Below are positions 21,306 to 46,156 of a stretch of DNA of 64,000 nt, one piece after another. The number at the start of each line of letters is the position of its first letter. Position 1 is the first letter of the stretch. This stretch comes from a bacterium. GTDB lineage: Bacteria > Sysuimicrobiota > Sysuimicrobiia > Sysuimicrobiales > Segetimicrobiaceae. The notes beneath the pieces are model-generated. The model saw nothing but the letters and a program-made list of their open reading frames with translations. It was not told the DNA's origin and made no database searches. The position numbers and the translations under genes are program-made. The stretch spans positions 1 through 64,000 of the forward strand of contig DATGFS010000022.1 in the NCBI GenBank assembly GCA_035308905.1, in the 5' to 3' direction.

Positions 21306-21785
21306 CTAGCGTTCGTGAATTTCGATGGGCGGCGCCGACATGCCCGTCAAGACAATGCGGATCAGCGTCCCAAGATCCAGGATCTGCGCGGCGACCAGCG
21401 TCAGGGTGTTAAGCGGCACAAGGGCGGCCGTCGTTGACAACGGAATGAGGAACAACCGGCCCTTCAGTTTTGGACCGGCCGGAGTGTTGAGCCGCACGAG
21501 CTGTCCCGGCGGAATTTTCTCCCCCTGCGGCACGAACGCCAGGAACGTCCCGGTCCGATCGCGCAGGACGGACAGCATGAAGCACTGACCCGCCGGAATG
21601 ATGACGCTGCCGGCGACGAGCGTCCGGGTCGGACAGAAGGGGTCCCCTGCATGGCGGACCATGGCCTGTTGACCCGGGGGCGGCGCTCCCGGTCCACTCT
21701 TCGGCCCAGGTCCGGCGGCCGCCGGCAAGACCGCCAGCGTCGCGATCACACACGCAGTTAACAAGAGCGATGTGGCTCTCGTCAC
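21306..21785 (-). CDS. Exported protein, function unknown
   Basis: A 159-residue protein with a clear signal peptide (MTRATSLLLTACVIATLAVLPAAAGPG), a proline/glycine linker and a mostly beta, hydrophobic body with two cysteines (FCPTR, GQCFML). No family recognised. It is convergent with coaB across the terminator and begins 220 bases from tRNA-Gly on the opposite strand. Confidence 0.6.
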   Translation of the reverse strand: MTRATSLLLTACVIATLAVLPAAAGPGPKSGPGAPPPGQQAMVRHAGDPFCPTRTLVAGSVIIPAGQCFMLSVLRDRTGTFLAFVPQGEKIPPGQLVRLNTPAGPKLKGRLFLIPLSTTAALVPLNTLTLVAAQILDLGTLIRIVLTGMSAPPIEIHER

Positions 21786-21948
21786 GTAGGCACCTTCCTA
21801 TCTTGTTGTGTCGTCGTGGTCGGCAAGCAAAATGGCAGGAATCCAAAAACGACCACTACACTGCTTACCCCAAACGGGTGGAATATACGCATGTCTGGAT
21901 GGGTGGCCTCGGGGGTGCGCAGGCCGGGGGTACAAGGCCGCTCCGTCT

Positions 21949-21976
21949 TTGATTCCGCCCGGGCAGGGACTATAAT
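21949..21976 (+). promoter_or_regulatory. Promoter of tRNA-Gly
   Basis: -35 TTGATT (21949-21954), 16-base spacer, consensus -10 TATAAT (21971-21976), 32 bases before the tRNA. Confidence 0.7.
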
Positions 21977-22008
21977 AGGAGACGCCGTATCCCGGCACCA
22001 CAAGGCGA

Positions 22009-22083
22009 GCGGGAATAGCTCAGTGGTAGAGCATCTGCTTCCCAAGCAGAGGGTCGTGGGTTCGAATCCCATTTCCCGCTCCA
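22009..22083 (+). tRNA. tRNA-Gly (CCC), integration target
   Basis: Acceptor GCGGGAA/TTCCCGC, D arm AGCTCAGTGGTAGAGC, anticodon stem CTGCT with loop TTCCCAA (anticodon CCC), T arm GTGGGTTCGAATCCCAT, encoded CCA (22081-22083). The intact integrase starts 160 bases past its 3' end, so this tRNA gene is probably the attachment site of the island to the right. I could not find a second copy of its 3' end in the window. Confidence 0.95.
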
Positions 22084-22242
22084 GACCTAGTAAAACAAGA
22101 GTTTCTCGAACCTAGCACGTCGGGAAACGGGCCAGAAAAGCAGAGGCTCATCCCGGACAGATAATCAATCGCCGAGGCGCGCACAAGTCCCTCATCCTCG
22201 GCTCCTGACGGTGCCCCAGGGGACGGGGCGCAGGGAGCCAGT

Positions 22243-23175
22243 ATGCGCGCCAAGGTGTCGCCTCGGCCGTTCGCCGAGGTAGTTGAAGCGTTCCTGCTCC
22301 AAAAACAGGTGAACGGCTGCTCCGCCCGCACGGTAGCCGTTTACAAATGGTGGCTCGACCGCCTCGCTGCCGTTGTGCCGGACACCAGCGCCGTTGATCC
22401 GGCCGCCATGACGAGGTTCTTTGCCGGGCTGCGCGAGCGCGGCGTCTCGCCCTCGACGGTCCACCAGGCTTTCCGGACCTTCCGCACGTTCACGCGCTGG
22501 CTGATCGCGACCGGTGCCATCCGTCGGAATCGACTCGACGGGCTGGCGATCCGGACGCCGAAGACGCTCCCGGCCGTCCCTGCTGACGAGGAACTGAACG
22601 CCGTGCTGCAATCCTGTACCGACTCACCAGCCGGGATACGCAATTACGCCGCGATCCTCATGATGGCAGACGCTGGCCTGCGCGCGAGCGAGGCACTTCA
22701 TTTGCTGGTCGAGGACTGGCGGCCCGCTGACCGGTCCGTGTTCGTCCGGAGCGGCAAGGGGGCCCGGGATCGCGTTGTGTTTGTCGGTGCTACCACCGCG
22801 CGCGCTCTGAAGGCGTGGCTGTCCGTGCACCCGCAGCCCGGACCGGAGACGTGGCTTTTTTGCCAGCGCGACGGACGGCCGCTTACCAATCGAGGTCTCG
22901 TCACCATTCTGCACCGGCTCAGCGTACGCGTGGGCCTGCCGCCGGATCGGCGTCTGCATCCTCACAGTTTGAGGCATCTGGCCGCGACCGCGTGGTTGCG
23001 GAATGGGATGGGGCTCGACCAGGTGAGGCGGCTCTTGGGCCACAGCAGCCTGAACACCACGTTAAGGTACAGCAGCCTGGTCTCGGCCGACCTCCAGCAG
23101 GCCCATCGCGACGCTGGGGCTATAGAGCGCATGGGAGTTGACCGGTTGCAGCGCGCGCGTCGACGACCGGCATGA
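22243..23175 (+). CDS. Tyrosine recombinase / integrase
   Basis: A 310-residue XerC/D-like integrase. The N-terminal core-binding domain (FAEVVEAFLLQKQVNGCSARTVAVYKWWLDRL) is followed by the catalytic domain: Arg in DAGLRASEALHL, Lys in RSGKGARDRVV, HPHSLRHLAA (H-x-x-R), LLGHSSLNTTLRYSSL with the His and catalytic Tyr. All active-site residues are present. The location next to tRNA-Gly is typical of an island integrase. Related in sequence to the decayed copy at 1-257. No clear Shine-Dalgarno is seen before the ATG. Confidence 0.92.
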   Translation: MRAKVSPRPFAEVVEAFLLQKQVNGCSARTVAVYKWWLDRLAAVVPDTSAVDPAAMTRFFAGLRERGVSPSTVHQAFRTFRTFTRWLIATGAIRRNRLDGLAIRTPKTLPAVPADEELNAVLQSCTDSPAGIRNYAAILMMADAGLRASEALHLLVEDWRPADRSVFVRSGKGARDRVVFVGATTARALKAWLSVHPQPGPETWLFCQRDGRPLTNRGLVTILHRLSVRVGLPPDRRLHPHSLRHLAATAWLRNGMGLDQVRRLLGHSSLNTTLRYSSLVSADLQQAHRDAGAIERMGVDRLQRARRRPA

Positions 23176-23306
23176 CGTCGGTCATGATGTGATCGGACGT
23201 CCCCCCAGGGGGACATCGGCGTCAGCCGGGCAGAGGCGCCGGTTCACGGTTTCGGGGAACGCCGGGCGTTGTTGCGGCCGCGTGTACTAGCTCTAAAACT
23301 GCAGGA

Positions 23307-24278
23307 CATCCGTGACACATGAGGTAGCACCGCCAGAGCCTAGAGGGGGGTGCCCATGGGTCCGGATGACCGCGTCGTTCATCGACGGTTGGGCTGGTTT
23401 CGGCACGTCGACGAGATTACCCACAATGTCGCGAAGACCTGTCGGTACTTTGGAATCAGCCGCCAGACCTACTACCGCTGGTACCGACGCTACGGGAAGC
23501 TTGGGGAGGCCGGGCTTCGGGACGGATCCTCGCGGCCCTTGCATTCGCCCCGGGCGACGCCCTCGGAGGTCGTTGAGAAGGTTCTCTATTTGCGGCGATA
23601 CTACCACTTCGGCCCGGCCCGCATTTGCATGTACCTGCGGCGCTATCACGCGCTGACCATCAGCCAGTCCGGTATCTGGCGGCTGCTGAAGCGCGCCGGC
23701 GTAAGTCGACTGCCCTCCAATATGCGGTACCAGAGTCGCGAGCAGCGCTTCAAGCGTTATGAGAAACCGCTGCCTGGCCACCAGCTGCAGATCGACGTCA
23801 AATTCCTGGCCCCCGTCGCCGGCCGCACGCGGAAGTACTACCAGTACACGGCCATCGACGACTGCACGCGCATCCGCATCCTGAAGATCTTCGATGCGAA
23901 CACCCAGCAGGTCGCGATCGCGTTTGTCGACTATGTCCTGTCCAAACTCCCCTTCAAGGTCGAATGCATCCAGACCGACAATGGGGCTGAGTTTGGCCCG
24001 CAGTTCCACTGGCATGTCCTCGACAAGGGCATTCAGCACCGCTACATTCGACCGCGGCGCCCCTACCTGAACGGGAAGACCGAGCGATCTCACCGAATCG
24101 ACAACGAAGAATTCTATCGGCAGCTCGAGGGCGTCGTCATTTCCTCGGTGGCCGAATTCAACGGCCTGCTCCAAGAGTGGGAGCGGTTTTATAACTACGC
24201 ACGGCCACACGGCAGCCTCCAGGGGCAGACCCCCTACGAACGGCTCCGTGAGAAGCTCCAGGTCATGTGTCACGGATG
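23307..24278 (+). mobile_element. IS481-type insertion sequence
   Basis: 16-base perfect terminal inverted repeats (CATCCGTGACACATGA at 23307-23322 and its complement at 24263-24278) enclose one DDE transposase gene. Flanks AGGA on the left and ATTG on the right do not form a target duplication, so the element may have been rearranged since insertion, or the outermost bases are mis-set. Confidence 0.75.
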
Positions 24279-24279
24279 A
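23356..24279 (+). CDS. IS481-family transposase
   Basis: A 307-residue transposase. N-terminal helix-turn-helix (NVAKTCRYFGISRQTYYRWYRRYGKLGEAGL) and an integrase-type core with the DDE triad in QLQIDVKF, QTDNGAEFG and NGKTERSHRIDNEEF, followed by NYARPHGSLQGQTPYERL. The stop codon lies in the right inverted repeat. ATG 23356 follows a G-rich AGAGGGGGG; GTG 23350 is also possible. It appears intact and may still be active. Confidence 0.9.
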   Translation: MGPDDRVVHRRLGWFRHVDEITHNVAKTCRYFGISRQTYYRWYRRYGKLGEAGLRDGSSRPLHSPRATPSEVVEKVLYLRRYYHFGPARICMYLRRYHALTISQSGIWRLLKRAGVSRLPSNMRYQSREQRFKRYEKPLPGHQLQIDVKFLAPVAGRTRKYYQYTAIDDCTRIRILKIFDANTQQVAIAFVDYVLSKLPFKVECIQTDNGAEFGPQFHWHVLDKGIQHRYIRPRRPYLNGKTERSHRIDNEEFYRQLEGVVISSVAEFNGLLQEWERFYNYARPHGSLQGQTPYERLREKLQVMCHG

Positions 24280-24798
24280 TTGGCCAACCTACACCTAGCG
24301 CGTGAGATAAACTGCTGGGTAGCAGCCAGGACGCTCGGCAGCGGCGACGGCACGTTGCGGAGGCTTCTGGCCGGCGCGGCCGTGGGGAAGGTAGACCCGG
24401 TCCCCGCGTAGGCTGTCGAGCAAACCACGGCTATCCTAGGCCGCGCCAAAACCTAGTGGAAAGTCGCCCCCGGAAAGTCCGATAATCTGCCGGTTCCGGA
24501 CGGCATCGTGCGCCGCGTCAAAAGAGTTCTTTTGGCGCGGGGCGATTCGTGTCGGCACTGCAAAATCTTGTGAACGTCACCGAAGGTGGAGTATCGGCCG
24601 TCTGGCACCGTCCCAAGGCATCGCAAACACACTGGGACGTACGATACCCATCGCGTCGCCAGAGAGCCCCTTTGATTGGAGCCGCCAAAATTTTGCGCTC
24701 GTAATACCACACGACGTTGGTCGCAGAACCGGGCCGACCTCTCGTAGCCGCGCAAAACGAAAACAGCGCGCTTACATATCGCCTCGCGTGTCGAGGGT
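24280..24798. other. No supported gene; contains a 13-base hairpin
   Basis: About 520 bases without a convincing frame. It holds an inverted repeat at 24513-24540 (arms CCGCGTCAAAAGA and TCTTTTGGCGCGG, one mismatch, 2-base centre). The AT-rich middle of the stem and short centre look more like a protein-binding palindrome or a cruciform than a terminator. Confidence 0.4.
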
Positions 24799-25692
24799 CT
24801 ACTTCTTCACAAAGACGCGTACGACGCAGGACGCTAGTTTAGTAACGTTTATCGAATTCGGCACAGACCATGTCCATCCGTAAGCACCGTAAGTGGAATA
24901 TGTTTGGAAGTTGCGAGCATTTAAGGAAACCGCGCCGCGTGGATCCACCGCATAAGTGAACGGCGACGGGCAGGCAGCCGACTGCGTCACGGGGTAACCT
25001 TGCGCCGTCGGTTTCCCCGGTTTGAAGGTCAGGCCGTACTGGATCGGATAGTGGTAGTTGCAGCCTCCGTATTTCGCGACACCACCCTCCGATTGGCACA
25101 CCTTCGAGTCGGTGATCAAAGCGTCGAAGTCCACGTAATTGGTACGGATTGAATAGTACACTGCGATCGGGAGGTACAGGCAGGCTGTGGCAGCCGCGCC
25201 CTTGCAGAATGCCAAGAAATCTGCGGGAAACGGCCCGACGAACTCCTTCCCGGACACTTTGAAGCTGCTTCGTGAAAAATTCATGGGGAGCGGCGTGAGC
25301 GAACCTTCATTTTTCTCCGACTTCAACAGCGTCTGTAGCTGAAGAGCCCCGAGCTTCGCGGCGGTCGCGAAGCGTTGCAATCGGAGCTTGTGTTCTGAAC
25401 GAAGGACTCCAAGTGAGACCGTGGCGCCGATCTTGAGCTTGATCAGCGTCGCGTCAGGCAGACTGGCGCGGTCGGCGGCGCTCAGCGATTCGAGGTCGCG
25501 GGCGGTAGACGCGCCGAACGCGGGATAAGTAACGGCGGCGAGCAAGAGCGTCAACGCCGCGCACCCCACGCTGCGAACGATCCGGAACGAACACGCCCGG
25601 AGCATCAGGACCCGGGCCTTCCTCGATGGACGCCGGTCTGCGACCAACTTCTTGGTCTTGCTAACGGAATAAGGGTCTGGCACTTTAGGCAC
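24799..25692 (-). CDS. Exported protein, function unknown
   Basis: A 297-residue protein. The GTG at 25692 is fixed by AGGAGG eight bases upstream, giving a long basic N region (KTKKLVADRRPSRKAR) before the signal segment SVGCAALTLLLAAVTYPAFGA (about residues 41-60). The mature part has several cysteines (FCKGAAATACLY, KVCQSEGG, GGCNYHY, SAACPSPF, ASCVVRV), which suggests disulfides outside the cell. No family recognised. Base use is more AT-rich than the flanking chromosome. First of a run of exported proteins. Confidence 0.7.
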   Translation of the reverse strand: MPKVPDPYSVSKTKKLVADRRPSRKARVLMLRACSFRIVRSVGCAALTLLLAAVTYPAFGASTARDLESLSAADRASLPDATLIKLKIGATVSLGVLRSEHKLRLQRFATAAKLGALQLQTLLKSEKNEGSLTPLPMNFSRSSFKVSGKEFVGPFPADFLAFCKGAAATACLYLPIAVYYSIRTNYVDFDALITDSKVCQSEGGVAKYGGCNYHYPIQYGLTFKPGKPTAQGYPVTQSAACPSPFTYAVDPRGAVSLNARNFQTYSTYGAYGWTWSVPNSINVTKLASCVVRVFVKK

Positions 25693-26563
25693 GGTCTGGG
25701 CCTCCTAATTTTACGTCGATCCGAATTCAGGACGCGTCTCGATCAACGCACCCTCTACCGAGGCATGTTACCTCCATACGATGCGGCACGCCTACGACTC
25801 GCTCGAAATGCTGGCCCAAGATTTCCGCGCTGGCCCCGCTGGGGCCGGGCATGAGGCGACTGCTATCTTTTCGGTTGGTCGGATTGGTCACCTTCCCACG
25901 CCACTGTTCTTTCGGCAGGAAGGTCACGCGGTGGGCGAAGGTCTTCTCGATGCGCCGCGTCGTCCAGGACTACGTCCTCGCCGCCCTCGACCGCGCGACG
26001 CCGGACATCGAACGGTTCATTGCCGGGGCATCTGGAGTGCCCGGAGAGCGTCCCGCTGATTTTCGCCGACCGGCTGGCCTCAATACGCGAGATCAGGAGC
26101 GCAAAGATCATGCCCCGGTACCGGGCCGACTTTCCCGAGGTGGACGTCGCCGTCGTGATGCGGGTGTCCGTAAAGGCGAGAACGCGACGGGACAGGGCTG
26201 GCCAGGGGATACGGCCGTTCTTACTCGACGTGGCGTTGGATGCCGTCGGCACCGTGCAGGGCCACGGATACGACGTCGTGCCGCAGCGCGCGCGGCTCAC
26301 CGCGTGGTGGGGCGGAGAATAGATGCGCCCTGTGCGGTCGGACGCCAGGGAGCGACCGGGGGCAGGTGAATCCCGAGCGTCGCATGAATGGGCTTCCTCG
26401 CGCGTCGGCCCTGGTGAGCAGGACGTTGTTGATCCAGGGGCTCCTTCGGGGGATGGGAGGGAGACCACCGATGGCGTCCATCCCCACGTGGCAAATTGGT
26501 CGCTACCGTAGATCGCATATCACGGAAGAAGAGGTTGGGAGCCACGTTCCGGAGGTGTCGTCC
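25693..26563. other. About 870 bases without a supported gene
   Basis: Several short frames exist on both strands but none has a convincing start and protein-like composition. Two plus-strand stretches (around 25960-26050 and 26050-26322) read as pieces of one decayed gene in different frames; the second ends PQRARLTAWWGGE, and a similar end occurs near 34364. Probably a degraded phage-like or island gene. Confidence 0.4.
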
Positions 26564-27502
26564 GTGAAGAAGTCGCTTACTCGGCTTGCCGCCTTGGCGC
26601 TGTCAATGGTACTGCCTGGTGCGGCGCTGCTCGTTCCCTGGATAGCCACTGCAGCCCAACCACCGAACCCCGCGTGGCGACCCGCGCCAGTGATCCATAT
26701 CACCTTCATCGAGCGTTTCGCTTCCGGTTACGCGCCGGAAGTCGACCTTCGCCCCATCATCATGCGCCGCGGACTCGCCGTGCGCGACCAGGGCAATCGC
26801 GGCACGTGCACCGTGTTCGCGACGACGTTTCTGATCGAGTATCAGCGGGCCGCGATGACCAGCGCACACGGGAGCGGGGCTGCGCTGTCGGAGGAGTATC
26901 TCAACTGGGCGGGCAACAAAGCGACCGGCGAAGACAACGACGGCGGATTCTTCACGAAGATAATCAGCGGGTATCAGGCCTGGGGGGTCGCGCCAAACGC
27001 GAGCATGCCGTACCTGCCGGCATACGATCCCACCCATCCCGCGACGCCGAGCGCCTCGACCATCGCCGCGGCCAAGGCGATGTTTCCGGTGCGATACCCG
27101 TTCACCATCCTCAAGGTCTGGGACAACACGAAGGGGCTGACACCCGCGGAGCTGCAGCGCGTGCTGGCGACGCTCCGGTCCGGCCGTCCCGTGGCCACCG
27201 GAATCTGGTGGCTCACGAACTTCGCCACGGTGACCGTCGACGGCGTGCCGCTGCTCAAGGATTATCCTCGTAGCGCCAACTCGGGCTCTAACCCTCCGAT
27301 GTTCGACGGCCATTCCATCGACCTGGTCGGGTTCCACGAATCGCGCGCCTTTCCCGGCGGCGGCTACTTCATCTTCCGGAACAGCTTCGGCCCGGACTTC
27401 GGGAACGCCGGGTATGGGTTCGTCTCGTTCCAGTACCTGCGTGCCTACGCGAACGACGCCATCGCCATATCGCCGCCGCCCTGGCGACCGGTTCGGAAAT
27501 AG
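26564..27502 (+). CDS. Exported papain-like (C1A) cysteine peptidase
   Basis: A 312-residue protein. The GTG start has GGAGG eight bases upstream and leads a signal segment (KKSLTRLAALALSMVLPGAALLVPWIATAA). The catalytic triad is visible: VRDQGNRGTCTVFATTFLIEY (oxyanion Gln and nucleophile Cys), MFDGHSIDLVGFHE (His) and YFIFRNSFG (Asn). An inserted segment around GNKATGEDNDGGFFTKIISGYQAWGVAP matches the C1A middle. There is little or no propeptide. Likely an extracellular protease of the accessory island; it is followed 187 bases on by an exported Fn3-like protein. Confidence 0.88.
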   Translation: MKKSLTRLAALALSMVLPGAALLVPWIATAAQPPNPAWRPAPVIHITFIERFASGYAPEVDLRPIIMRRGLAVRDQGNRGTCTVFATTFLIEYQRAAMTSAHGSGAALSEEYLNWAGNKATGEDNDGGFFTKIISGYQAWGVAPNASMPYLPAYDPTHPATPSASTIAAAKAMFPVRYPFTILKVWDNTKGLTPAELQRVLATLRSGRPVATGIWWLTNFATVTVDGVPLLKDYPRSANSGSNPPMFDGHSIDLVGFHESRAFPGGGYFIFRNSFGPDFGNAGYGFVSFQYLRAYANDAIAISPPPWRPVRK

Positions 27503-27689
27503 GGGAACAGGAGTTCACCTTTTTCACGGACGGGGATCAATCCCGCGTGCGTCACCCGACGGCCAAGCGCACATGGACCGGAGAGGGGGCGATGAGTCGA
27601 CGACGAACGCTCGTTTCGTCTTGACTTCGATCACAAGTGGAAATCCCAGTCTCAATCGACCACGCCGTGCTTATAGGAGATGCGCTGTC

Positions 27690-28805
27690 GTGACTCAGCG
27701 CCCTCGTTTTGTCTCGACCCTGCTCGCAGCGATCCTCGGTTTGAGTACCCTAGGAGCGCCGCTTCCGGCCAGTGCTGCGATTGCGCGGCCGACGAACCTA
27801 CGCCCGGTACAAAGCAAGGCGGATTGCGCAACGGCTCTCAGCCTCGCCGCTGTTGTTTGTGATGCAGCCGTGAAGGCAGGCGACCTTCAACTGATCTGGG
27901 ACGAGTCGGATAAAACCGTGGCCGGGTACAAGGTGTATCAATTCGGTGCGGGCGGCAACCAACTCTTGGGGACGTCGACGGGGACGGCGCGTTACTACTT
28001 GGTCAAAAAGCCGCCGGAGGGCTACGCCAACTTGTGCTTCGCGGTCCAGGCGTACGTCGGTAGCCAAACCTCCCCGGATAGCCTGCACTACTGCTATGCG
28101 CCCGGCGCGACGGCTTCGACGCGGTCGTTTAAGCCCAGCCACACGGCGACGCAGGTCACCTGGAATGCGCCGACGAGTCAAGGGTGTGGGGCCAACCCGC
28201 CGTTCGGCGCCGCCAATTTCCGAAGCGCTGACACGAAGTTCGGCTCCGCCTTCACGGCGTTCTTCCCCTGGCTACTGAAGAACCCCCAGTCCGCCAATCT
28301 CCTGTCAGGCCGGCGTCGCGTAGGTGGTGTGTATGTCGGGAACGAGGCAGGGATCATTCACCCTTATGGTCCTTGTTCGACAGCGACAGTAACAGTCAAC
28401 GCCCTCGCGGGCGCGGCTTTCGATCTCGGGGCGCTCGCCCATCACAAACTGTACTCGGCCAGCCTGACGCTCAATGCGTCGCAAACCGTGGGCTTTGCCT
28501 CCGGGAAAGCCACGCTCTCCAACGGTGGTTGGTGCCCGATTTGGGTCGGGGCCGCGAATCGGGAGTGGTGGCTCGCTCCCCTTGGAAACTTGACCTCTAA
28601 CAAGTCCGGGCGGGTGCAGGTCGCGTCCTCGCCGACGACCGACACCGATGTCACCTCGCTCGCATCCGCCTGGGGAGTCAAGTACAACACCAACAACTAC
28701 GGATTCGTCATAGAAGGCAACCCCCCGTCGGGCGGTGCTCCGACCACGAGCAATGCCTGCCTCACGAAGTTCTCGACCCCGTCGCTGCAAATCGTATACT
28801 TCTGA
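27690..28805 (+). CDS. Exported Fn3-like protein, function unknown (copy A)
   Basis: A 371-residue secreted protein (signal RFVSTLLAAILGLSTLGAPLPASA). GTG start with AGGAGA ten bases upstream. The N-terminal third (LRPVQSKADCATALSLAAVVCDAAVKAGDLQLIWDESDKTVAGYKVYQ) resembles a fibronectin type III strand pattern with paired cysteines. The C-terminal part (LYSASLTLNASQTV ... SLASAWGVKYNTNNYGFVIEG ... FSTPSLQIVYF) resembles a carbohydrate-binding or adhesin beta-sandwich. Copy B at 32011-33138 is clearly homologous over its whole length. No named family. Confidence 0.75.
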   Translation: MTQRPRFVSTLLAAILGLSTLGAPLPASAAIARPTNLRPVQSKADCATALSLAAVVCDAAVKAGDLQLIWDESDKTVAGYKVYQFGAGGNQLLGTSTGTARYYLVKKPPEGYANLCFAVQAYVGSQTSPDSLHYCYAPGATASTRSFKPSHTATQVTWNAPTSQGCGANPPFGAANFRSADTKFGSAFTAFFPWLLKNPQSANLLSGRRRVGGVYVGNEAGIIHPYGPCSTATVTVNALAGAAFDLGALAHHKLYSASLTLNASQTVGFASGKATLSNGGWCPIWVGAANREWWLAPLGNLTSNKSGRVQVASSPTTDTDVTSLASAWGVKYNTNNYGFVIEGNPPSGGAPTTSNACLTKFSTPSLQIVYF

Positions 28806-28833
28806 GCGCCGCGACCCATGCGTATCGCGGCGC
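28806..28833 (+). terminator. Hairpin after copy A
   Basis: Perfect 9-base arms GCGCCGCGA and TCGCGGCGC with a 10-base loop, starting one base after the stop codon. No U tract follows. Confidence 0.55.
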
Positions 28834-29133
28834 AGACCTTCAAGTCAAAGCCGAGGGCTGACGCCGATTAACTACACGGAGGCGCTATCGCCGCGCTCGA
28901 CGCGGACAATCTCCGGCCCCCGCGTGGAATCCTGTAGTCACAATCGAATAAGGAGACTATCAAGAGCGACGCGGCAAGCGACGCGTCCGGCAACCTGGCG
29001 AGCGACGCCGAGGTGCCCGGCCTCGATGTTCGAGGCGATAGGCCCGCGAGGGAACCAAGGTCGCGCACCTCTCCGTGCGCGGAGGGGTTTCGTGTTCGCG
29101 CGCGCTTGATAGCCTCCCAAGAGGGAGGCGAAT
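28834..29133. other. Intergenic, no gene seen
   Basis: Three hundred bases with only short arginine-rich frames. It carries several near-repeats of GCGACG-type hexamers around 28965-29020 and a short GC hairpin (arms CGCGCAC and GTGCGCG at 29062-29081) ahead of the next gene. Confidence 0.3.
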
Positions 29134-29460
29134 ATGTCGGATCAGAGCGGGTACGAGCACGGCGGCAAGTGGCCGAGGCGGCTGGTGCATGAGGACATGC
29201 ACTACATCGTCCACAAGGTCGCGGAGGCGACCGTGCGCGACGGCGCGGTCGTGCTGTCCTGCGTCCATGAAGATGGCCGCCCGTATTACGGCGGGCCCTA
29301 CCACCCGAGTGTGTTCAAGAGCCACAGACGGCCGATCAACGAGCATCTGAGCGAGTGGGGTATCGTGCTTGAACGAACGCGCCGTAGCCGGCGCGCCGGG
29401 CGCATAACCAAGAGCCGTTCTCAGAACACCACGACCATAGCCGTGAACCCTGCCGATTAG
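29134..29460 (+). CDS. Small hypothetical protein
   Basis: A 108-residue soluble protein: MSDQSGYEHGGKWPRRLVHEDMHYIVHKVAEATVRDGAVVLSCVHEDGRPYYGGPYHPSVF, then a basic tail (ERTRRSRRAGRITKSRSQN). The ATG is preceded by GGGAGGCGA, a good ribosome-binding site, and the protein has balanced composition, so I take it as real. No family recognised. It is convergent with the serine hydrolase gene. Confidence 0.6.
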   Translation: MSDQSGYEHGGKWPRRLVHEDMHYIVHKVAEATVRDGAVVLSCVHEDGRPYYGGPYHPSVFKSHRRPINEHLSEWGIVLERTRRSRRAGRITKSRSQNTTTIAVNPAD

Positions 29461-29470
29461 AGTTGCGGCA

Positions 29471-34055: not shown

Positions 34056-34189
34056 GTTTCACCTCCTCGGTTCGCCGGATCGGAGGGCGTACGCTGCGAT
34101 GAAGCGACCCGGCGGATACTGTGTGAATTGCGCCAAAATCCCACTCCCGGCACCAACGCTACTCACACACCCGTTCAGTCTTATAACGC

Positions 34190-34355
34190 AAACCCGCCCG
34201 GACCGACAGGGCTCTCGCTTGTCGCCAGCAGGCGCCAGCGGACCCGGCCGCCGCAGAGCGGGCATCGACTGAAGTACGCCGGGTGCTTCTCGTACCCGTG
34301 GCCGATGAATGTCGGAGTCCGATACCCGCAGCGTGCGTGGCTCGTCGCGTGGTGG
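34190..34355 (-). pseudogene. Zinc-ribbon-like reading frame without a start
   Basis: This frame reads HARCGYRTPTFIGHGYEKHPAYFSRCPLCGGRVRWR then a tail ending GGFAL, with C...CPLC ligands and protein-like composition, but it has no ATG, GTG or TTG after the preceding stop. An ACG sits where a start would be expected. A related stretch near 26281-26312 has GTG at that place. Probably a decayed or non-canonically started small zinc protein. Confidence 0.4.
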
Positions 34356-34368
34356 GGAGGGTGAACCT

Positions 34369-34620
34369 ATGCCGAAGCCGTCAGACGCACCGCAGAAGCC
34401 GGTGTCCGGGTCTGACCCCGACGACTACTGGCTGGACGCCCTGATCTACGCGGCGCACAACGCGGAGGCCATCGTGGCGGAGGAAGAAGCAGAAATGGAG
34501 CGACTCCGGAAGAAAGGCTTGTGGCCGCCCAAGAAGGGAACCTCAGATCGTCATCGGCTCGGCACCAACTCCCGGAGTTCGGTGAGGGTGACATTTGGGC
34601 TGTCTCGTGCGTCCTCATGA
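34369..34620 (+). CDS. Small hypothetical protein
   Basis: An 83-residue acidic protein: MPKPSDAPQKPVSGSDPDDYWLDALIYAAHNAEAIVAEEEAEMERLRKKGLWPPKKG, then a tail. The ATG has GGAGGG about nine bases upstream. The helix with EEEAEMERLRKK is protein-like. The part after KKG (around 34545) is less convincing and contains one copy of a 15-base repeat, so the gene may have been altered at its 3' end. Confidence 0.5.
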   Translation: MPKPSDAPQKPVSGSDPDDYWLDALIYAAHNAEAIVAEEEAEMERLRKKGLWPPKKGTSDRHRLGTNSRSSVRVTFGLSRASS

Positions 34621-34662
34621 TCTCCCCGCCTCAAATGGATCTACCAAATCGTCATCGGCTCG
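34547..34662 (+). repeat. Direct 15-base repeat pair
   Basis: ATCGTCATCGGCTCG occurs at 34547-34561 and again at 34648-34662, 101 bases apart, inside the accessory region. It could mark a small duplication or insertion scar. Confidence 0.6.
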
Positions 34663-34855
34663 CCAGCACCGGTAGATTCGTCGTGAGCACCCAGGCGTTA
34701 ATGTGGGCAACGACGCTGAGGAATAGGTTGAGCAACTCGGCGACAGCGACGAGGATGAAGGACGCCACGACTGCGGTCAGTAACGCGTACTCGACTGTCC
34801 CCTGGTTAGATCCGGGATGGCTCGAAGGCCGCGTAGCAGCCCGCGCGGAGCCCAC
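34652..34855 (-). CDS. Flp/Fap-type pilin-like small protein
   Basis: A 67-residue protein. SNQGTVEYALLTAVVASFILVAVAELLNLFLSVVAHINAWV has the Flp pilin signature G-x-V-E-Y-A-L followed by a single hydrophobic helix. Flp pilins are processed just before the hydrophobic stretch by a TadV-type peptidase and assemble into tight-adherence pili. GTG at 34855 is used as start; no strong Shine-Dalgarno. No tad genes are nearby, so it is an orphan here. Confidence 0.6.
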   Translation of the reverse strand: MGSARAATRPSSHPGSNQGTVEYALLTAVVASFILVAVAELLNLFLSVVAHINAWVLTTNLPVLASR

Positions 34856-35387
34856 ATTGGGACTGGGGTAATCGGAAAGCCACTCGTGGTACGTAACTTC
34901 TCTTGCTCGCGGACTCTAGCGGACCGTACCGGCGGCCGAAGTCGACGGTGCCGCGCGATGACGTCGAGATCACCGTACTCATCAAAAATCCCCCCTATTG
35001 AGCCGGGGAGACGGTGTCGTCGCCCCTCGGCAGCCCGGCTAACGTGCCAGCGACCCGCTGGCCAGTCCCGTGGCTTTGCGTCCCCAGGTTCCCCTGGGTT
35101 TGCCCTTGAACGAGGTGCCCGTATGTAATTGTCTCGCTATGATGGTAGGTCTCGTGAAACGGTGCCGCGTCAGGCGGACGTCTGATTCCGAGTCCGCAGA
35201 TCGTCTGATTCGCGTTACGCGGGCGTTCCGCCGTTCTTGATTGGATGCTCCACGTACCTTCTCACCAACCTACGGTTGGGAGGGATGCAGGCGTCAAAAC
35301 GGAAATCTCCGTCAAAATTGAGAGTCCCCGTAAACCATAAATCTTCAGGAACGGGCCCTTCTTGGGGGCGGGCGGGAGGAAACCCGG
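34856..35387. other. About 530 bases without a supported gene
   Basis: Only short frames, one of which (minus, 35215-35499) has fair composition but overlaps the start of the next gene antisense and lacks a ribosome-binding site. A small hairpin CAACC-TAC-GGTTG lies at about 35269-35281. I see nothing else. Confidence 0.35.
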
Positions 35388-36395
35388 TTGAATCAGGTAC
35401 ACGCTGAAACCCAGGCGAAAGACCTAAGCGGAAATTCCAGTTTGTCGGTCGCGAGAGCACGTGGAATCGTTCGGGTAGCCCCTGCGGCGATCGGTACAAT
35501 CGTGGTCACCTTGCTGGCAATGATCCCCTTCCCTGGGGGGAGCCACGCCCGTGAACTTTACCTCATCGATGTCCACAGCCAAATCGATCGCCAGACTCAG
35601 CCGGATACCGTCACGAAGTTGCTCGAACAGAGCGGAGTCCGGGAAACCATTCTCTCTTCAACGGGCAACGCATCGCAGGATAACGTACTTAGGCTTGCAC
35701 AGCGCAATCCCACCAAGATCATCGCCGCTGTTCGCACGAAGGACTACAAAGGCCCAGCTGTCGAGAGCCAGGTGCGATCCGGCAAGTACGGCGCGATGGC
35801 GGAAGTACTCGTGTATCACGTCGCCAAAGAGATGAGCAACGGACGGCAGATGCGGGCGGTAGACCTCGAACCAGACGACCCGAGCGTTCTCTTTGCCCTC
35901 GATCTCGCCATCCGCAATCACTGGCCATTCATTATCCATATCGAGTTCGCGGCGGCGCCTCCGGCACAGCGCACCGCGCTGATGAACAAACTCGAAGCAC
36001 TCATGACGAAGTACCCTGACGAACCCTTTGCCCTAATCCACATGGGCCAACTTAATGCATCGGAGGTCGGGCGCCTGATTGCCGCCCATCCGAACGTGTA
36101 TTTTATCGCGTCCACTTCCAACCCGATCACGGCCCACCGGGGTGGACAGCCGTGGACCAACATGTTCGCAGGCCGACATTTGGCGCCGGAATGGAAGGCG
36201 CTGCTCGTGGACCACCCCGATCGCTTCCTGCTGGGCTTCGACAACGTTGTCGCGAACAACTGGGGACCAGAGTACCTGGATCAGATCGCGCTCTGGCGCG
36301 GTGCCCTCGCCGACCTACCGGACGATGCCGCCGACGCGTTTGCCCATGGTAACGCCGAGCGGCTTTGGCATCTTCCGAGGCGGACGGCACCATGA
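35388..36395 (+). CDS. Membrane-anchored or exported amidohydrolase-2-like protein
   Basis: A 335-residue protein starting at TTG with GGAGG upstream. A hydrophobic segment (GTIVVTLLAMIPFPGGSHA, about residues 36-55) precedes a TIM-barrel metal-dependent hydrolase: LIDVHSQID in place of D-x-H-x-H, FIIHIEF, FALIHMGQLNASEVGRLIAAHPNVYF and FLLGFDNV are PF04909-type strand ends. Only one of the first two metal histidines is in place, so metal binding may differ. The stop overlaps the NHL gene (ATGA). Substrate unknown. Confidence 0.7.
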   Translation: MNQVHAETQAKDLSGNSSLSVARARGIVRVAPAAIGTIVVTLLAMIPFPGGSHARELYLIDVHSQIDRQTQPDTVTKLLEQSGVRETILSSTGNASQDNVLRLAQRNPTKIIAAVRTKDYKGPAVESQVRSGKYGAMAEVLVYHVAKEMSNGRQMRAVDLEPDDPSVLFALDLAIRNHWPFIIHIEFAAAPPAQRTALMNKLEALMTKYPDEPFALIHMGQLNASEVGRLIAAHPNVYFIASTSNPITAHRGGQPWTNMFAGRHLAPEWKALLVDHPDRFLLGFDNVVANNWGPEYLDQIALWRGALADLPDDAADAFAHGNAERLWHLPRRTAP

Positions 36396-37405
36396 AATTC
36401 GAGGTGCCGCTATTGGCTGTTAAGGGCGAGTCTTCGGGTCGTGTCGGGTGGTTCGCCCGGGTGGCGAAGGCGGCTATTGCGGTCATGGCAATGCTGTGGG
36501 CGGCTGCCGCTCCTACCACCCTCGGCGCGCCCGCACCCGCGTCGACGTTCGCGTCTGGTGACTACGTCTTGTCCCAGGAGAGTCCACAGGCCCGACAGCA
36601 GGAACAGAGTCGCTCGGCGGGATCATTCATTTTTCACCTGACACGAACCGGCCAAATCGACGTTATGTCCAAGCCGCCTCAGATCACTGCCCCCCGAGGG
36701 ATCCGCGCGCTCGGAGGGGACCGGTTCGTGTTTGCGGATGCGCTCGGCGGCGCCATACGAATCGTGACGGCGTGGGGTGCGATTACGACACTTCATTCCG
36801 GCGCACCATTGACTGAGCCTAAGGACGTAGCGGCTGATCGAGGCGGCGGATACGTGATCGCCGATTTCGACACGTTCAAGGCCAACGCACATGGATCCAT
36901 CTTCAAGTTGACAGATGCTGGCAAGATCACGACGGTCGCGAGCGGTCCACCGTTGCGGTGGCCCCACGGGATCGATGTGGACGCCGAGGGCAACTACATC
37001 GTCGCCGACCACTCGGGATCTGTGTTTCGCGTCTCTCCGCAGGGCAAAGTGACGACAGTGGCGACCGGCGCTCCGCTCGTCGCTCCGACGGACGTGAAGG
37101 TCGACAAGGACGGCAACTACATTGTGACGGAAATCGGCATTGTCTTGGATGAGAACGGCCGCATGGACCTGGAGAAATCCAGGCACCCGGGCACGCTATT
37201 CAAGATTACCTCCGACGGCCAAGTCTCGACGATCGCGCGGCGGCCGATGGCGCGGTTTCGGGCGGTGGCGCTGCACCCGGACGGCGGATACGTCGTAGTC
37301 GATTTCAACAGCGCACTTTACCGCATCATGGCTGATGGGAACATCACGGTGCTCTTTCAAGGGCCGCCGCTGCATCAACCGTCGGGCATCGCCATCGTGC
37401 CCTGA
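36392..37405 (+). CDS. Exported NHL/SMP-30-like beta-propeller protein
   Basis: A 337-residue protein with a signal-type helix (VAKAAIAVMAMLWAAAAPTTLGAPA). About six repeats follow, each with a D-x-x-G-N/G-Y-I/V-V turn: RGGGYVIADFDT, AEGNYIVADHSG, KDGNYIVTEIG, PDGGYVVVDFNS. This is the NHL/lactonase-like propeller pattern. ATG overlaps the amidohydrolase stop (ATGA), so the two proteins are probably made together and act outside the cytoplasmic membrane, perhaps on one substrate. Confidence 0.8.
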   Translation: MKFEVPLLAVKGESSGRVGWFARVAKAAIAVMAMLWAAAAPTTLGAPAPASTFASGDYVLSQESPQARQQEQSRSAGSFIFHLTRTGQIDVMSKPPQITAPRGIRALGGDRFVFADALGGAIRIVTAWGAITTLHSGAPLTEPKDVAADRGGGYVIADFDTFKANAHGSIFKLTDAGKITTVASGPPLRWPHGIDVDAEGNYIVADHSGSVFRVSPQGKVTTVATGAPLVAPTDVKVDKDGNYIVTEIGIVLDENGRMDLEKSRHPGTLFKITSDGQVSTIARRPMARFRAVALHPDGGYVVVDFNSALYRIMADGNITVLFQGPPLHQPSGIAIVP

Positions 37406-37672
37406 CGGGAGGCGGAACGAGGTTTTGTAAACGGCATCGTTGTCGGTCATGCTGCAGGAGGCGTTTACCGAACATCCGGAACGCAATGACGACGGCATCA
37501 ACGCCGCGCGCCTAGCCAGCCACGCTCTCCGCTAGTCGCGGGATGCTCGTGCCTGCCCCTGACTTTGGTGACTCCACCCTTGGAGACAAGGGCGCCCTGT
37601 GGGCAGGAGGGATGACGCATCTTTGTGAACCCCCCGAGAAACCGTGCTGACGCGTCGCGGGGGGTGGGTTAG

Positions 37673-39313
37673 GTGACACGACTGGGGAGAGGAATCGCGG
37701 CCTTATCGCTGGTCTGGATGCTCGCGGTCGCTTGCATCGGGACGACCGCCGCATGGAGCGCGAGTAAGCCGTCTGCGAACGAAATCTACGAAATGGCGAA
37801 ACTCGCCTCCGTCATGGTTCTGAATACGATCAACGTCCAAGTAGCCGTGCCACATGGTCAGATTTCTTCCGCAAAGTCCCAACTGCTCGTGCAGCAGGTG
37901 CGTCAGATGATGCAGGCGGGCCAGATCGCCCAAACTCAGGAGGCGGCCAAGGCAGCAGTGGTCCGGCTGTTGCTGAATGATCCGCTGGCCTACGTTGAAC
38001 CGAGCGACCGGTTTGTCCGCAAGCGGGTGCAGATGCAGGTAATGGGGTCGGGGTTCTTTGTGACGCCGGACGGCTACATCGTCACCAATGCCCACGTCGT
38101 CACACCATCATCGGACGACCTCAAACAGGCTGTCACTCAGACGGCGACGCAGTTCGTTGCGCAGTTCCTTGCAGAAGACACGCAGAGTTTGACTCAACTC
38201 CTCGGCTACCAGTTGTCCACCCAAACCATGAAAGACTTGCAGAACGCCGACACCCAGTACGTTCTGAAATATATGCGCATCGAAAACGTCGGCACAGCGG
38301 TCGCTGTAGAAATGGGGGCGGCGGTGCCGGGCGTTGTCGTCGGCCAGCGCGGCGCCGCGGCGGAGGTTGCCGCCAAGGGCGCGGTCACGCCGGGCAAGGA
38401 CGTCGCAATTCTGAAGATCGAGGGGCGGCAATACCTACCCACGCTCCCGATGGGGGACGAGACACAACTCAACGTGTCTGATCCACTGCTCGTGATCGGA
38501 TACCCTGGGGATGCCACGTTCCTCCCAATTCTCTCGAGTGCCAGCCAGGTGGAACCCACGCTGACCGCGGGCATCCTGAGCCGTCGAGCGGAAATGAGCG
38601 GCGGGTGGACCGCGCTGCAGACGGATGCGACGGTCCACCATGGCAACAGCGGAGGCCCGGTACTCAATACCCAGGGTCAGGTTGTCGGTATCGCGACGTT
38701 TGGCGCGAGCGACGCAGCGGGGACAAACTTCATTGTCCCGACGACCATCATCAAGGAATTTCTGAAGCGCGCCGGTGCGGACCCGCGGTCGAGTAAGACC
38801 TCCGAACTCTATGCGCAGGCGTTGGGGGATTACGGTCAAAGCCATTACCGGGCCGCCTTCGCGATCTTCCAGCAGGTCGACGCGTTGTTTCCAGGCAATC
38901 CGTTCGTCAAGCAGTTCATGTCCAGTTCGCAGGCGGCGATCCTCGCTGGCAAGGACCGGCCCGCAACGAGCGTGGTCGCCACCCTTGCCAAGTGGATTGG
39001 TGTTTTGGTTCTAGTGGCCGCGGTCATGGGTCTTGCGCTGCGCCGCGGTCAGACGCTTCCGGGGGCGCGGATTTTGAGCGTCCGCGGTGTGCATCCGAGA
39101 GCCGCAGCCGCCCCGGCTGCACAATCGGGTATTGTTCCGCCGACTGCCACCGCTTTGTGCTCCCAATGCGGCGCCGTCCTGACGCCCGGCCAGAAGTTCT
39201 GTGGCTCATGTGGAGCGGCGGCTGCACCCGCCCGCGCGGTGTGCTCGCAGTGCGGCGCCGAAGCGGCACCAGGTCAGAAGTTCTGCGGGGCCTGCGGAGC
39301 GCCAATCGCGTAG
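37673..39313 (+). CDS. Trypsin-like serine protease with TM helix and C-terminal zinc ribbons
   Basis: A 546-residue protein. N-terminal signal-type helix (GIAALSLVWMLAVACIGTTAAW), then a DegP-like protease: YIVTNAHVV (His), KDVAILKIEG (Asp) and HHGNSGGPVLN (Ser). A helical insertion of about 90 residues (LKQAVTQTATQFVAQFL...) separates the first two blocks. A short helical tail, a membrane helix (WIGVLVLVAAVMGLALRR, about 441-460) and two zinc ribbons follow (CSQCG ... FCGSCG and CSQCG ... FCGACG). Predicted topology: protease outside, ribbons inside. GTG start after a G-rich stretch. Mixed architecture, not a standard HtrA; no PDZ is visible. Confidence 0.85.
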   Translation: MTRLGRGIAALSLVWMLAVACIGTTAAWSASKPSANEIYEMAKLASVMVLNTINVQVAVPHGQISSAKSQLLVQQVRQMMQAGQIAQTQEAAKAAVVRLLLNDPLAYVEPSDRFVRKRVQMQVMGSGFFVTPDGYIVTNAHVVTPSSDDLKQAVTQTATQFVAQFLAEDTQSLTQLLGYQLSTQTMKDLQNADTQYVLKYMRIENVGTAVAVEMGAAVPGVVVGQRGAAAEVAAKGAVTPGKDVAILKIEGRQYLPTLPMGDETQLNVSDPLLVIGYPGDATFLPILSSASQVEPTLTAGILSRRAEMSGGWTALQTDATVHHGNSGGPVLNTQGQVVGIATFGASDAAGTNFIVPTTIIKEFLKRAGADPRSSKTSELYAQALGDYGQSHYRAAFAIFQQVDALFPGNPFVKQFMSSSQAAILAGKDRPATSVVATLAKWIGVLVLVAAVMGLALRRGQTLPGARILSVRGVHPRAAAAPAAQSGIVPPTATALCSQCGAVLTPGQKFCGSCGAAAAPARAVCSQCGAEAAPGQKFCGACGAPIA

Positions 39314-39332
39314 CGGGGAAACCGCCATACGC

Positions 39333-39542
39333 GGCTCCAGCACTCTGATCCTCGGCCAGTACAATCGCGAGGGGAACCTCGCGTACGCGGGTTTCTGCGC
39401 CAACGGCCTGACGGAAACGGCGCGCGCGGTCCTCCTGGAAGAACTCCGGGTCACGCCACCACCGGCGATCAAGATGATATCGGACCCGTTCGATAAACGG
39501 AATCGAGCCGACTACTTTGACGAGGTGGCTTTGCGAGAATGA
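39333..39542 (+). pseudogene. ATP-dependent DNA ligase C-terminal remnant
   Basis: The frame ending at 39542 reads SSTLILGQYNREGNLAYAG then FCANGLTETARAVLLEELR, as in the OB-fold end of ATP-dependent (LigC/LigD-like) DNA ligases. Only about 70 codons remain, with no start of their own; upstream is the zinc-ribbon gene in another frame. It is a gene fragment left by a deletion or insertion. Confidence 0.5.
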
Positions 39543-39638
39543 GATGTGGGTGGGATCGGTAAATTACGGCTTGGACCCGATGGTTCGCCAATTCGCTCCA
39601 CCCTTATCATGTTGGTGGGCAGTTCCCTGGAGGCGCTT

Positions 39639-40538
39639 ATGACGCAGCAGGCGGTTTCAATGGCGGGCATCTTCCCCCCGATTCCGACGCCGTTCGACAC
39701 GGCAGGCGAGGTAAATCTCGAGGCGCTGGCGTCCAACTTCCGGAAATGGAACACGTTTCCGCTGGCCGGGTACGCGGTGTTGGGAACGAACGGCGAGATG
39801 CCGTATCTCAGCGACGCGGAGAAGTTGACCTACTTCGAGGCTGCACGGAAGCTCATCCCGCCGGGGAAGCTGTTCATGGCGGGCTGCGGGTGCGAGTCGA
39901 CGCACAGCACGATCGCTCTGGTCAAGAAGGCCGCCGCCCTCGGCGCCGACATCGCCCTACTGATCAGCCCGAGCTACTACAAATCCAAGATGGACAACGC
40001 GGCCCTCACCGACTACTACCGCCGAGTGGCTGACGCATCGTCGATACCGGTGAGCATCTACAACATGCCCGCCAACACGATGGTGGATATGTCGGCGGAC
40101 CTGATCGTCACGCTGTCCGCGCACCCCAACATCGCAGGGGTGAAGGACAGCGGCGGGAACCTGGCCAAGCTGGGGGAGATCATCAGAAACAGCCGGCCTG
40201 GGTTCCAGGTGCTGGCCGGCTCCGCGGGCTTCCTCTATCCCGCGTTGTGTCTCGGGGCTGTGGGCGGCGTCTTGGCGCTGGCCAACATCGCGCCCCAGCA
40301 GTGTTGTGATCTGCTGAACCTCGCCACGCAGGGAAAGCACATCGACGCTAAGGAGCTCCAACTTCGCTTGATCTCGCCGAACACGGCGGTGACCGCCCGT
40401 TTCGGCGTGCCCGGGCTAAAGGCGGCGATGGAGATGGTGGGCTTGTTCGGAGGCAACCCACGCAGCCCGCTCCAGCCGCTCTCGGCTGAGCAGCGGGAGA
40501 TCCTCCGGCGTATCCTCACGGAGGCGGAGATCCTCTAG
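39639..40538 (+). CDS. Dihydrodipicolinate synthase / N-acetylneuraminate lyase family aldolase
   Basis: A 299-residue class I aldolase-type TIM barrel: GIFPPIPTPFD at the start, GTNGEMPYLS (usually GTTGE), IYNMPANTMVDM with the catalytic Tyr, and IAGVKDSGGNLAKLGEII with the Schiff-base Lys. TGGAGG lies five bases before the ATG at 39639; the frame extends upstream to 39546 but without such a site. The family covers DapA, NanA, and 4-hydroxy-2-oxoglutarate or keto-deoxy-sugar aldolases; the substrate cannot be chosen by sequence alone. Confidence 0.88.
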   Translation: MTQQAVSMAGIFPPIPTPFDTAGEVNLEALASNFRKWNTFPLAGYAVLGTNGEMPYLSDAEKLTYFEAARKLIPPGKLFMAGCGCESTHSTIALVKKAAALGADIALLISPSYYKSKMDNAALTDYYRRVADASSIPVSIYNMPANTMVDMSADLIVTLSAHPNIAGVKDSGGNLAKLGEIIRNSRPGFQVLAGSAGFLYPALCLGAVGGVLALANIAPQQCCDLLNLATQGKHIDAKELQLRLISPNTAVTARFGVPGLKAAMEMVGLFGGNPRSPLQPLSAEQREILRRILTEAEIL

Positions 40539-40559
40539 GCTGTCCTGTTGGGCTGGCTT

Positions 40560-40895
40560 CTATATGTATCTGTGTTCGCTAAGTGTCCGTCCGATCTCAG
40601 AGTCGCGGGCGGCACGAACCGCCCCAATGCCCTCGTCGATGGCATCGCGGGCCAGTTTCATCAATTGCTGCGCCTCTAAGTCGGACTCCGCCACGCCCTT
40701 GACCGACATCAGATTCGCGACAGCGAACCCCACAAACAACGCGCTATAGCGAACCGCATCCGGAACGGACGTGCCCCGTTCCTGAAAGAACCGCATGAGA
40801 TCCCGGATGGCTTGCTCCCGCAGCGGAAGAGCCTCCGCTGTTGTTTGAACCTCACTGTCCGGGTTAACCGGCTCCTTCTTGGCGAACCACGCCAT
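40560..40895 (-). CDS. Small helical protein, function unknown
   Basis: A 111-residue soluble protein: MAWFAKKEPVNPDSEVQTTAEALPLREQAIRDLMRFFQERGTSVPDAVRYSALFVGFAVANLMSVKGVAESDLEAQQLMKLARDAIDEG. ATG at 40895 follows AAAGGGTG; in-frame ATG 40922 is also possible. It is predicted mostly alpha-helical. No family recognised. Convergent with the aldolase gene. Confidence 0.6.
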   Translation of the reverse strand: MAWFAKKEPVNPDSEVQTTAEALPLREQAIRDLMRFFQERGTSVPDAVRYSALFVGFAVANLMSVKGVAESDLEAQQLMKLARDAIDEGIGAVRAARDSEIGRTLSEHRYI

Positions 40896-41167
40896 GGCAG
40901 CACCCTTTGATTGAGAAGTCATGAACGCGCTGCCGTGATGTTGGCGGATCCGCGGCGAACTCCTTGAACCGCGGAGGCTCCGCGTAATTCTGTGCAATTT
41001 TTGCCGGATTTTCCTACACCTTCAATCCGCGACAACGCAATATGTGGAGGATATCGTTTGGTCCCTTGGAACATCTACGTCGATTCGATCTGATGCTCTT
41101 ATCCGAGGCATGCTCGCCGGGCGGTCAAATGGTTGAGCCACGGGATCCCGGACATCAAGAAGACGCG

Positions 41168-41791
41168 ATGCTCAAGCTCATGGTCGAGTTTCGCCAGATA
41201 TGGCTCGCCGGTGAAGCATTGAGGGCGGGCCCGTCGGCTCCACCTCCACCCACACCAACGAAACGGATCAGGTTACGGGCCCTCATCCCGCTGCTGCTTG
41301 CCGCCATAACGTCCGCCTATCTCATCGCTCAACTGTTGGAACCCTCAAGCCGCATGTCGCTTCATGTCCCGTGGGGGCCGCGCGGACAGGCTGCGGCCCA
41401 TCCGGCTGCCGGTGGAACCCCTCCCCCCGCCTCACTCCTTCCCGCTGCAGGCCGGGAGGCGGCCCGATCTACGCCACCACTGTCCACCGTATCGCAGGAC
41501 GGACCCCCGCCGGCCGCGGGCGTCGATTCAGCCGCACTGGGGATCTCCGCGCCTCGCCCCGAGCAATCCCCCGGCTACCACGTTCAAGCCGGCGCGTTTA
41601 ACGTCCGCGAATATGCCGAAGATCTCATGCATCAGCTGCGTTCTCACGACTATCCCGCGACTCTGGTTGATGCCCGGACAGGACCACCGCATCGGGTGTG
41701 GATCAAGGGTACCTTCGACCGGTCGGACGCAGAGCAGCTCGCGAACCGGCTCCGAAGAGATGGTTTTGAGGCGATTCTCCTCCCTCAATAA
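41168..41791 (+). CDS. SPOR-domain membrane protein
   Basis: About 207 residues from ATG 41168. A basic stretch and a membrane helix (LRALIPLLLAAITSAYLIAQLLE, about residues 40-62) lead to a proline-rich linker and a C-terminal SPOR domain: GYHVQAGAFNVREYAEDLMHQLRSHDYPATLVDARTGPPHRVWIKGTFDRSDAEQLANRLRRDGFEAILL. SPOR domains bind denuded peptidoglycan, so it is likely a cell-wall or division-linked protein. In-frame starts at 41129 and 41042 exist and no strong ribosome-binding site decides. Confidence 0.75.
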   Translation: MLKLMVEFRQIWLAGEALRAGPSAPPPPTPTKRIRLRALIPLLLAAITSAYLIAQLLEPSSRMSLHVPWGPRGQAAAHPAAGGTPPPASLLPAAGREAARSTPPLSTVSQDGPPPAAGVDSAALGISAPRPEQSPGYHVQAGAFNVREYAEDLMHQLRSHDYPATLVDARTGPPHRVWIKGTFDRSDAEQLANRLRRDGFEAILLPQ

Positions 41792-41809
41792 CTCCGGAAC
41801 GAGACGGGG

Positions 41810-46150: not shown

Positions 46151-46156
46151 CGTCAA

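Follow-up and report, generated by a model that had tools for sequence, protein, structure and literature searches.

Mobile DNA often lands in tRNA genes, and changes of target by the integrases that use them are mostly inferred after the fact. Tycheposons, which combine a tRNA-linked tyrosine recombinase with cargo, resemble by description only the locus reported here, an island that begins beside an intact tRNA-Gly(ccc) gene (22009-22083, +) in a window of 64,000 nucleotides (the whole stretch of DNA analysed; G000:C22:1-64000, from an assembly of 4.0 Mb in 81 contigs). Another likeness is offered by the Islander tDNA islands (PMC4383910), which share with this locus a tyrosine integrase and a whole tRNA gene at one end, and with its relatives a displaced 3′ tRNA fragment at the other. 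They differ in that the closing fragment was not found in the window and in that the integrase here is XerC-like, the Xer and integron subclasses being excluded from the Islander search. Anticodon-centred sites are a further shared trait and make up 2083 of 3919 Islander islands; an archaeal review (PMC8371274) also describes anticodon-centred islands as common. Mycobacteriophages integrated in tRNA-Lys have the core in the tRNA and putative accessory integrase sites on both sides (PMC10865867); their integrases are described with an N-terminal arm-type binding domain, whereas none was found here and the candidate boxes described below resemble a core half-site. In the part of an account of CSP1-3 that was accessible (PMC11604079), the terms ‘integrase’ and ‘genomic island’ do not occur. 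Anticodon-centred tRNA islands are already known, and we regard the island of the window, with its exported cargo, as an ordinary case of a composite tRNA island in decay.

The tRNA-Gly site and its edges

A first-pass annotation, made from the sequence alone, had placed an accessory region beside tRNA-Gly. Such an island does exist there, a foreign-looking insertion of 20-25 kb, although its limits and its significance are not those of the earlier reading. The tRNA is followed on the same strand by a XerC-like tyrosine integrase of 310 aa (22243-23175, +; PF00589, E 1.4e-34), in agreement with the proposed accessory region. The reported drop in GC content was also confirmed: GC is 0.698 in the left flank, 0.623 in 22084-41800, 0.664 in 41801-47144 and 0.697 in the right flank, GC at third codon positions is 0.768 in the island against 0.906 and 0.883 in the flanks, and the coding share of called genes is 0.68 in the island against 0.91 in the flanks. 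The start had been set at 21306, but in both same-genus genomes used for synteny (the sisters G001 and G002) a homologue of the exported gene 21306-21785, with 70-71% identity, stands immediately to the left of tRNA-Gly; this gene is therefore conserved flank, and the island starts at 22084.

The right boundary, which had not been found by 41.8 kb, is placed by synteny at about 47.15 kb, where an M20-family peptidase-like gene (47145-48812, -) resumes the order seen in both sisters. Contig C8 of G002 begins just before tRNA-Gly with a different integrase (38% identity) and joins window position 47153 at C8:26000, and the start of contig C80 of G001 matches the last 12 bases of tRNA-Gly and the attachment module that follows it (90%, 181 bp) and joins position 47161 at C80:7142. 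Because both contigs rejoin the window near 47.15 kb, the right flank is common to the three genomes, and all three differ between tRNA-Gly and that edge, the distance being about 25.5 kb in G002, with another integrase and other genes, and about 7 kb in G001. The last part of the island (41801-47144) holds a major facilitator superfamily gene (PF07690), a low-molecular-weight phosphatase-like gene (PF01451), a chromate transporter (PF02417) and two ChrB-type genes (PF09828); this block lies left of tRNA-Gly in G001 (C49) and G002 (C72), in partly altered order. Two whole copies of tRNA-Gly(ccc) are present in G002 (C72 and C8) and probably also in G001 (on C49 and at the beginning of C80), so that the islands of the sisters may be arranged in tandem.

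Two 3′ fragments of other tRNAs lie within the island: positions 34-73 of tRNA-Val(cac), starting in the anticodon (33466-33505, +; 97.5%), and the 20-nt 3′ end of tRNA-Leu(gag) together with about 24 nt of its downstream sequence in G007 (34136-34179, +). The latter piece of 44 nt matches a G007 locus (L163) at 95.5% (E 1.5e-15), its tRNA part alone being weak (E 0.009). The search used 36 tRNAs as queries and found no fragment in the control stretches (20 stretches of G000, one masked; 351 kb including the masked 2.9 kb). It gave none at 41.8 or 47.1 kb either, and a right attachment site (attR) at these two positions was rejected. A second tRNA-Val(cac) 3′ fragment, with 35 identical nt, occurs outside the window at G000:C26:29398-29432 (L160).

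We consider the region to be a genomic island, composite and in decay, that occupies a tRNA-Gly(ccc) hot spot, with a probability of roughly 0.78. An element with a Xer-like tyrosine integrase would have inserted into the anticodon arm of tRNA-Gly and rebuilt the 3′ half of the tRNA, leaving the tRNA, a spacer and the integrase as its left end. The right attachment site would then have been lost, and later pieces would have accumulated up to 47.15 kb, among them an IS481 element, riboswitch modules, the chromate block and the segments that bear the tRNA-Val and tRNA-Leu fragments. A tyrosine integrase adjoins an intact tRNA, as in tDNA islands, and with the displaced fragment of the same tRNA not found at the far end we file the island as a relic rather than an intact member of that class.

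The integrase family and its attachment sites

The integrase has R147, K172, H241, R244, H267 and Y276, which we take to be its catalytic residues. Its Pfam matches comprise a core-binding and a catalytic domain, with no arm-binding domain among them. It reaches 162 bits with the XerC model, below the cut-off of 335, and 69.7 bits with the integron-integrase model (cut-off 265); an integron was rejected on this last score, and Rfam gave no attC at gathering scores, no separate attC model having been run.

Across 43 genomes of the order, 23 homologues (E<=1e-30) were found in 16 genomes. At 12 of the 23 loci a whole tRNA lies upstream in the same orientation, its end about 50-190 bp from the first matched residue; these tRNAs are Gly, Ala, Arg, Pro and Ile. 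The remaining loci have no tRNA in the stretch examined. Close integrases follow different tRNAs: the one in G000 (Gly) is 74% identical to that in G001 (Ala), those in G029 (Arg(tct)) and G014 (Ala) are 77% and 76% identical to that in G016 (Arg(ccg)), and that in G002 (Gly) is 69% identical to that in G006 (Ala). A scan of genome contigs gave 17 loci, mostly distant, while viral contigs gave 11 distant integrases and phage records 370, all below 60% identity. Several tRNA-linked copies are truncated or broken. Five integrases (L129, L132, L149, L151 and L153), some near contig ends, match over only the first 85-115 residues or so, as if the catalytic domain had been lost repeatedly.

Six islands of relatives are bounded by a tRNA and a fragment of it. 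They comprise an Arg island in G022 (6.6 kb; perfect repeat of at least 119 bp), Ala islands in G014 (8.2 kb) and G006 (about 16 kb; 29 nt, 93%), and Gly islands in G004 (14 kb), G007 (2.5 kb) and G041 (6.8 kb). The fragment starts in the anticodon arm in four of the six pairs, and 14 of the 16 tRNA fragments listed start at tRNA positions 25-43, ten of those at 25-33. By analogy, the anticodon arm of the window's tRNA-Gly, CTGCTTCCCAAGCAG at 22035-22049, would be the crossover region. Most of the bounded G004 Gly island is occupied by an open frame of 2932 aa (L033 5085-13883).

The spacer between tRNA and integrase contains a B-like box (ACAAGAGTTTC; 22095-22105, +), recognised by alignment, and an A box, AAAGCAGAGGCTCA (22137-22150, +), whose GCAGAGG equals the 3′ strand of the tRNA-Gly anticodon stem. 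A spacer model built from 15 rows gave 41 matches in 22 of the 43 genomes (own rows included, E<=0.01), and at 27 of 30 loci a tRNA, once partial, ends at the start of the match or a few bases from it. At its end the spacer carries GAAAA-N7-CTCACCCC or a close variant, and N7 fits the anticodon-stem 3′ strand of its own tRNA better than those of other tRNAs (26 loci; on average 5.69 of 7 positions match, against 4.88 after permutation, p=5e-5); the 11 loci outside the model give 5.18 against 4.49 (p=0.0035). For this test 26 of 29 loci were used (L141, L076 and L147 were dropped for weak context), 15 had built the model, and only the flanks decided where the box was set, yet these flanks were picked after the alignment had been seen; as the loci are related and not independent, the p values are optimistic. 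The better argument is co-change in close integrases, since between G029 and G016 GCAG becomes GCCG in both tRNA and box. At 6 of the 18 far ends (G004:C31, C12 and C51; G011:C191; G014; G022), the best box stands 61-62 bp before the core start, with distances aligned to the core, compared with 65 of 3000 random windows at 60-62 bp. The G022 far-end box is identical to the left one, and one of the six scores a low 7, which 90% of random windows reach. The two tRNA fragments of the window and the tRNA-Ala(cgc) fragment on G001:C111 have no far-end box.

The A boxes may be core-like accessory sites of the integrase that switch with the target. If so, elements with Xer-like integrases without an arm-binding domain would carry accessory sites that copy the core half-site, namely the anticodon-stem 3′ strand of the target tRNA; with boxes co-evolving with the target, close integrases could have passed between Gly, Ala, Arg and Pro tRNAs through joint changes of core and boxes. 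We offer this general proposal, which comes from sequence comparison, tentatively and at just short of even odds. Integron attI sites, in which core-like accessory repeats adjoin the recombination site, provide a likeness to such boxes. Among the titles and abstracts within reach on arm-type or core-like sites and tRNA integrases, a set that leaves most subscription journals outside, none dealt with accessory boxes that track the tRNA.

A competing account, which we would bet against, though not heavily, takes the match between A box and tRNA as shared ancestry, as the vestige of an earlier insertion or as an alternative pairing with the anticodon stem at the RNA level, and not as a binding site. 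Many of the loci are related and share GCAG stems, the G007 tRNA-Gly fragment starts about at the box position, the Ile locus (L073) does not track, and 12 of the 18 far ends have no box at the expected distance, points that speak for this account. It is harder to reconcile with the box that changes with the target in G029 and G016, with the excess of far-end boxes over random windows and with the tracking at the 11 loci outside the model. The attachment-site pattern of this integrase family is of moderate interest: with many related integrases at different tRNAs and candidate boxes in one order of uncultured bacteria, target switching becomes directly testable.

Exported cargo and competing explanations

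By a home-made and crude signal-peptide rule, 8 of the 15 called island genes are predicted to be exported (at least one of the eight positives, 40560-40895, looks doubtful), against 50 of 315 in the controls (Fisher p=0.0014). The first-pass statement that nearly every gene encodes an exported protein thus holds as an enrichment, but not as worded, as the integrase, the IS481-type transposase, a DHDPS-family enzyme and small open reading frames (ORFs) are also present. Pfam supports most of the names given earlier: a papain-family protein with predicted export (26540-27502, +; PF00112, 1.1e-7), a beta-lactamase-family serine hydrolase (29471-30943, -; PF00144, 1.4e-38), an amidohydrolase (35388-36395, +; PF04909) and an NHL propeller (36365-37405, +; PF01436), all three likewise predicted to be exported, a trypsin-like/HtrA-like protease with hydrophobic stretches and C-terminal zinc ribbons (37673-39313, +; PF13365, PF13240) and a SPOR-domain protein (41042-41791, +; PF05036). 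The Fn3 and pilin labels found no Pfam match. The former belongs to two predicted exported paralogues, A (27687-28805, +) and B (32011-33288, -), which are 59% identical; the latter was probably meant for a small ORF (34652-34855, -) with a putative pilin-like motif.

Homologues on G001:C111 comprise the integrase (74%), the papain-like protein (89% aa) and the Fn3-like protein (66% aa), and the G001 island shares mainly these genes with the window, while G002 has other cargo at tRNA-Gly. Predicted exported genes number 11 of 24 in the G001:C111 stretch, 6 of 22 in the G002 island and 0 of 4 in the short G001:C80 island. The papain-like gene is on C88 in G004 (80% nt), and in G002 C32 has the DHDPS gene (83% nt) and C11 has the 40560 ORF plus a 45-bp piece of the SPOR gene. 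The Fn3-like protein occurs in 2 of 61 genomes (G000 and G001) and has no match in plasmids. As the finding that would refute it, the first-pass annotation had named an identical gene order at this location across many relatives, combined with normal composition; this did not occur, and at DNA level the block is absent from all 11 family relatives. We see the cargo as a shifting assortment of narrowly distributed, mostly exported proteins and not as one machine, and the island, itself an ordinary decayed hot spot, is an example of turnover among genes for exported proteins.

The suggested single system for extracellular attack or scavenging, here taken to move as a unit, is the least probable of the explanations considered. 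Exported hydrolases (papain-like, serine hydrolase, amidohydrolase/NHL and trypsin-like) are indeed clustered, and a cyclic di-GMP (c-di-GMP) riboswitch stands beside the small pilin-like ORF, but in the DNA search of the 11 family relatives, which diverged homologues could escape, the cargo genes do not travel together, only the papain-like and Fn3-like genes recur as a pair (G001:C111), strands are mixed, and PADLOC matches the trypsin-like protein alone of ten. A defence island was dropped on this last result. An intact mobile element (an integrative and conjugative element, prophage or satellite) with a merely unrecognised right end would fit the six catalytic residues and the complete left attachment module. 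It is nevertheless very improbable: attR was not found, 20 proteins scanned with Pfam include no conjugation family, PHROGs on 8 window proteins returned only the integrase, a weak peptidase and one weak unknown, and the window proteins scanned with Pfam contain neither Prim-Pol, unlike the elements of G014, G016 and G004:C31, nor a DnaB-N/AAA_25 protein such as that in the G022 element. We think it equally improbable that this is an ordinary hypervariable region of relaxed composition with an incidental integrase, for which the right-side block located elsewhere in the sisters, an amidohydrolase paralogue in G000 itself (76% nt) and two control stretches with a GC of 0.63 could be cited; the integrase family follows many other tRNAs, and relatives have paired ends, three of them at tRNA-Gly(ccc).

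Several observations weigh against a decayed composite island. No 3′ copy of tRNA-Gly closes it within the window, and elsewhere in the G000 assembly the near matches are only two other tRNA-Gly genes, so integration at this site is deduced from the left end and from relatives. The bounded Gly islands of G004, G007 and G041 have no integrase of this XerC-like family between their ends, and the G004 Gly and G006 fragments start at position 43, the last base of the anticodon arm, and at about 47, later than the anticodon loop. The catalytic residues are kept, so decay may be recent or partial, and the GC of the two control stretches means that low GC is not peculiar to this site. Against the window's own flanks (10 of 40 predicted exported) the enrichment is marginal (p=0.049), and the bounded elements are poor in such genes (G014 0/8, G022 0/6, G006 1/12, G004 Gly 1/5, G041 2/5, G007 0/3), so the exported cargo need not have arrived with the integrase. 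All genomes are fragmented assemblies, and adjacency in G001 depends on contig ends.

Further features of the window

After the integrase lies an IS481-type insertion sequence with 16-bp inverted ends (23307-24278, +; transposase ORF 23350-24279), followed by a protein of no family with a predicted signal peptide and one further hydrophobic stretch (24799-25692, -). A short module with a small ORF ending ...VVPQRARLTAWWGG (25839-26315, +), noted also at 34326-34360 of the window, recurs in several G001 contigs; its ORF has the end ...AWWGG. A SAM-I/IV riboswitch match (28952-29068, +; 44.7 bits, gathering score 41.1) precedes a 108-aa ORF of no family (29134-29460, +). This pair is multi-copy in G001 (C164, C170 beside tRNA-Pro, C15 and C41), and the riboswitch is present also in G002:C82. 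The exported protein at 31091-31945 (-) has a Tat-like signal and no family, Pfam TAT_signal falling below its cut-off; structure prediction gave a pLDDT of 31 for it and a mean of 27 for the Fn3-like protein. The c-di-GMP-I riboswitch is at 35026-35114 (-), upstream of the pilin-like ORF, and further c-di-GMP riboswitches are present in L042 (class II) and L168 (class I). The DHDPS-family gene is at 39546-40538 (+).

A second hot spot is seen at tRNA-Ala(tgc) (264-338, -). Below it, a decayed integrase fragment (about 156-290, -) matches residues 31-53 of the G001 integrase (91%, E 5e-10, tblastn). In G001, contig C49 ends at tRNA-Ala(tgc) and shares an identical overlap of 141 bases with C111 at its integrase end, so the G001:C111 island most likely sits at tRNA-Ala.

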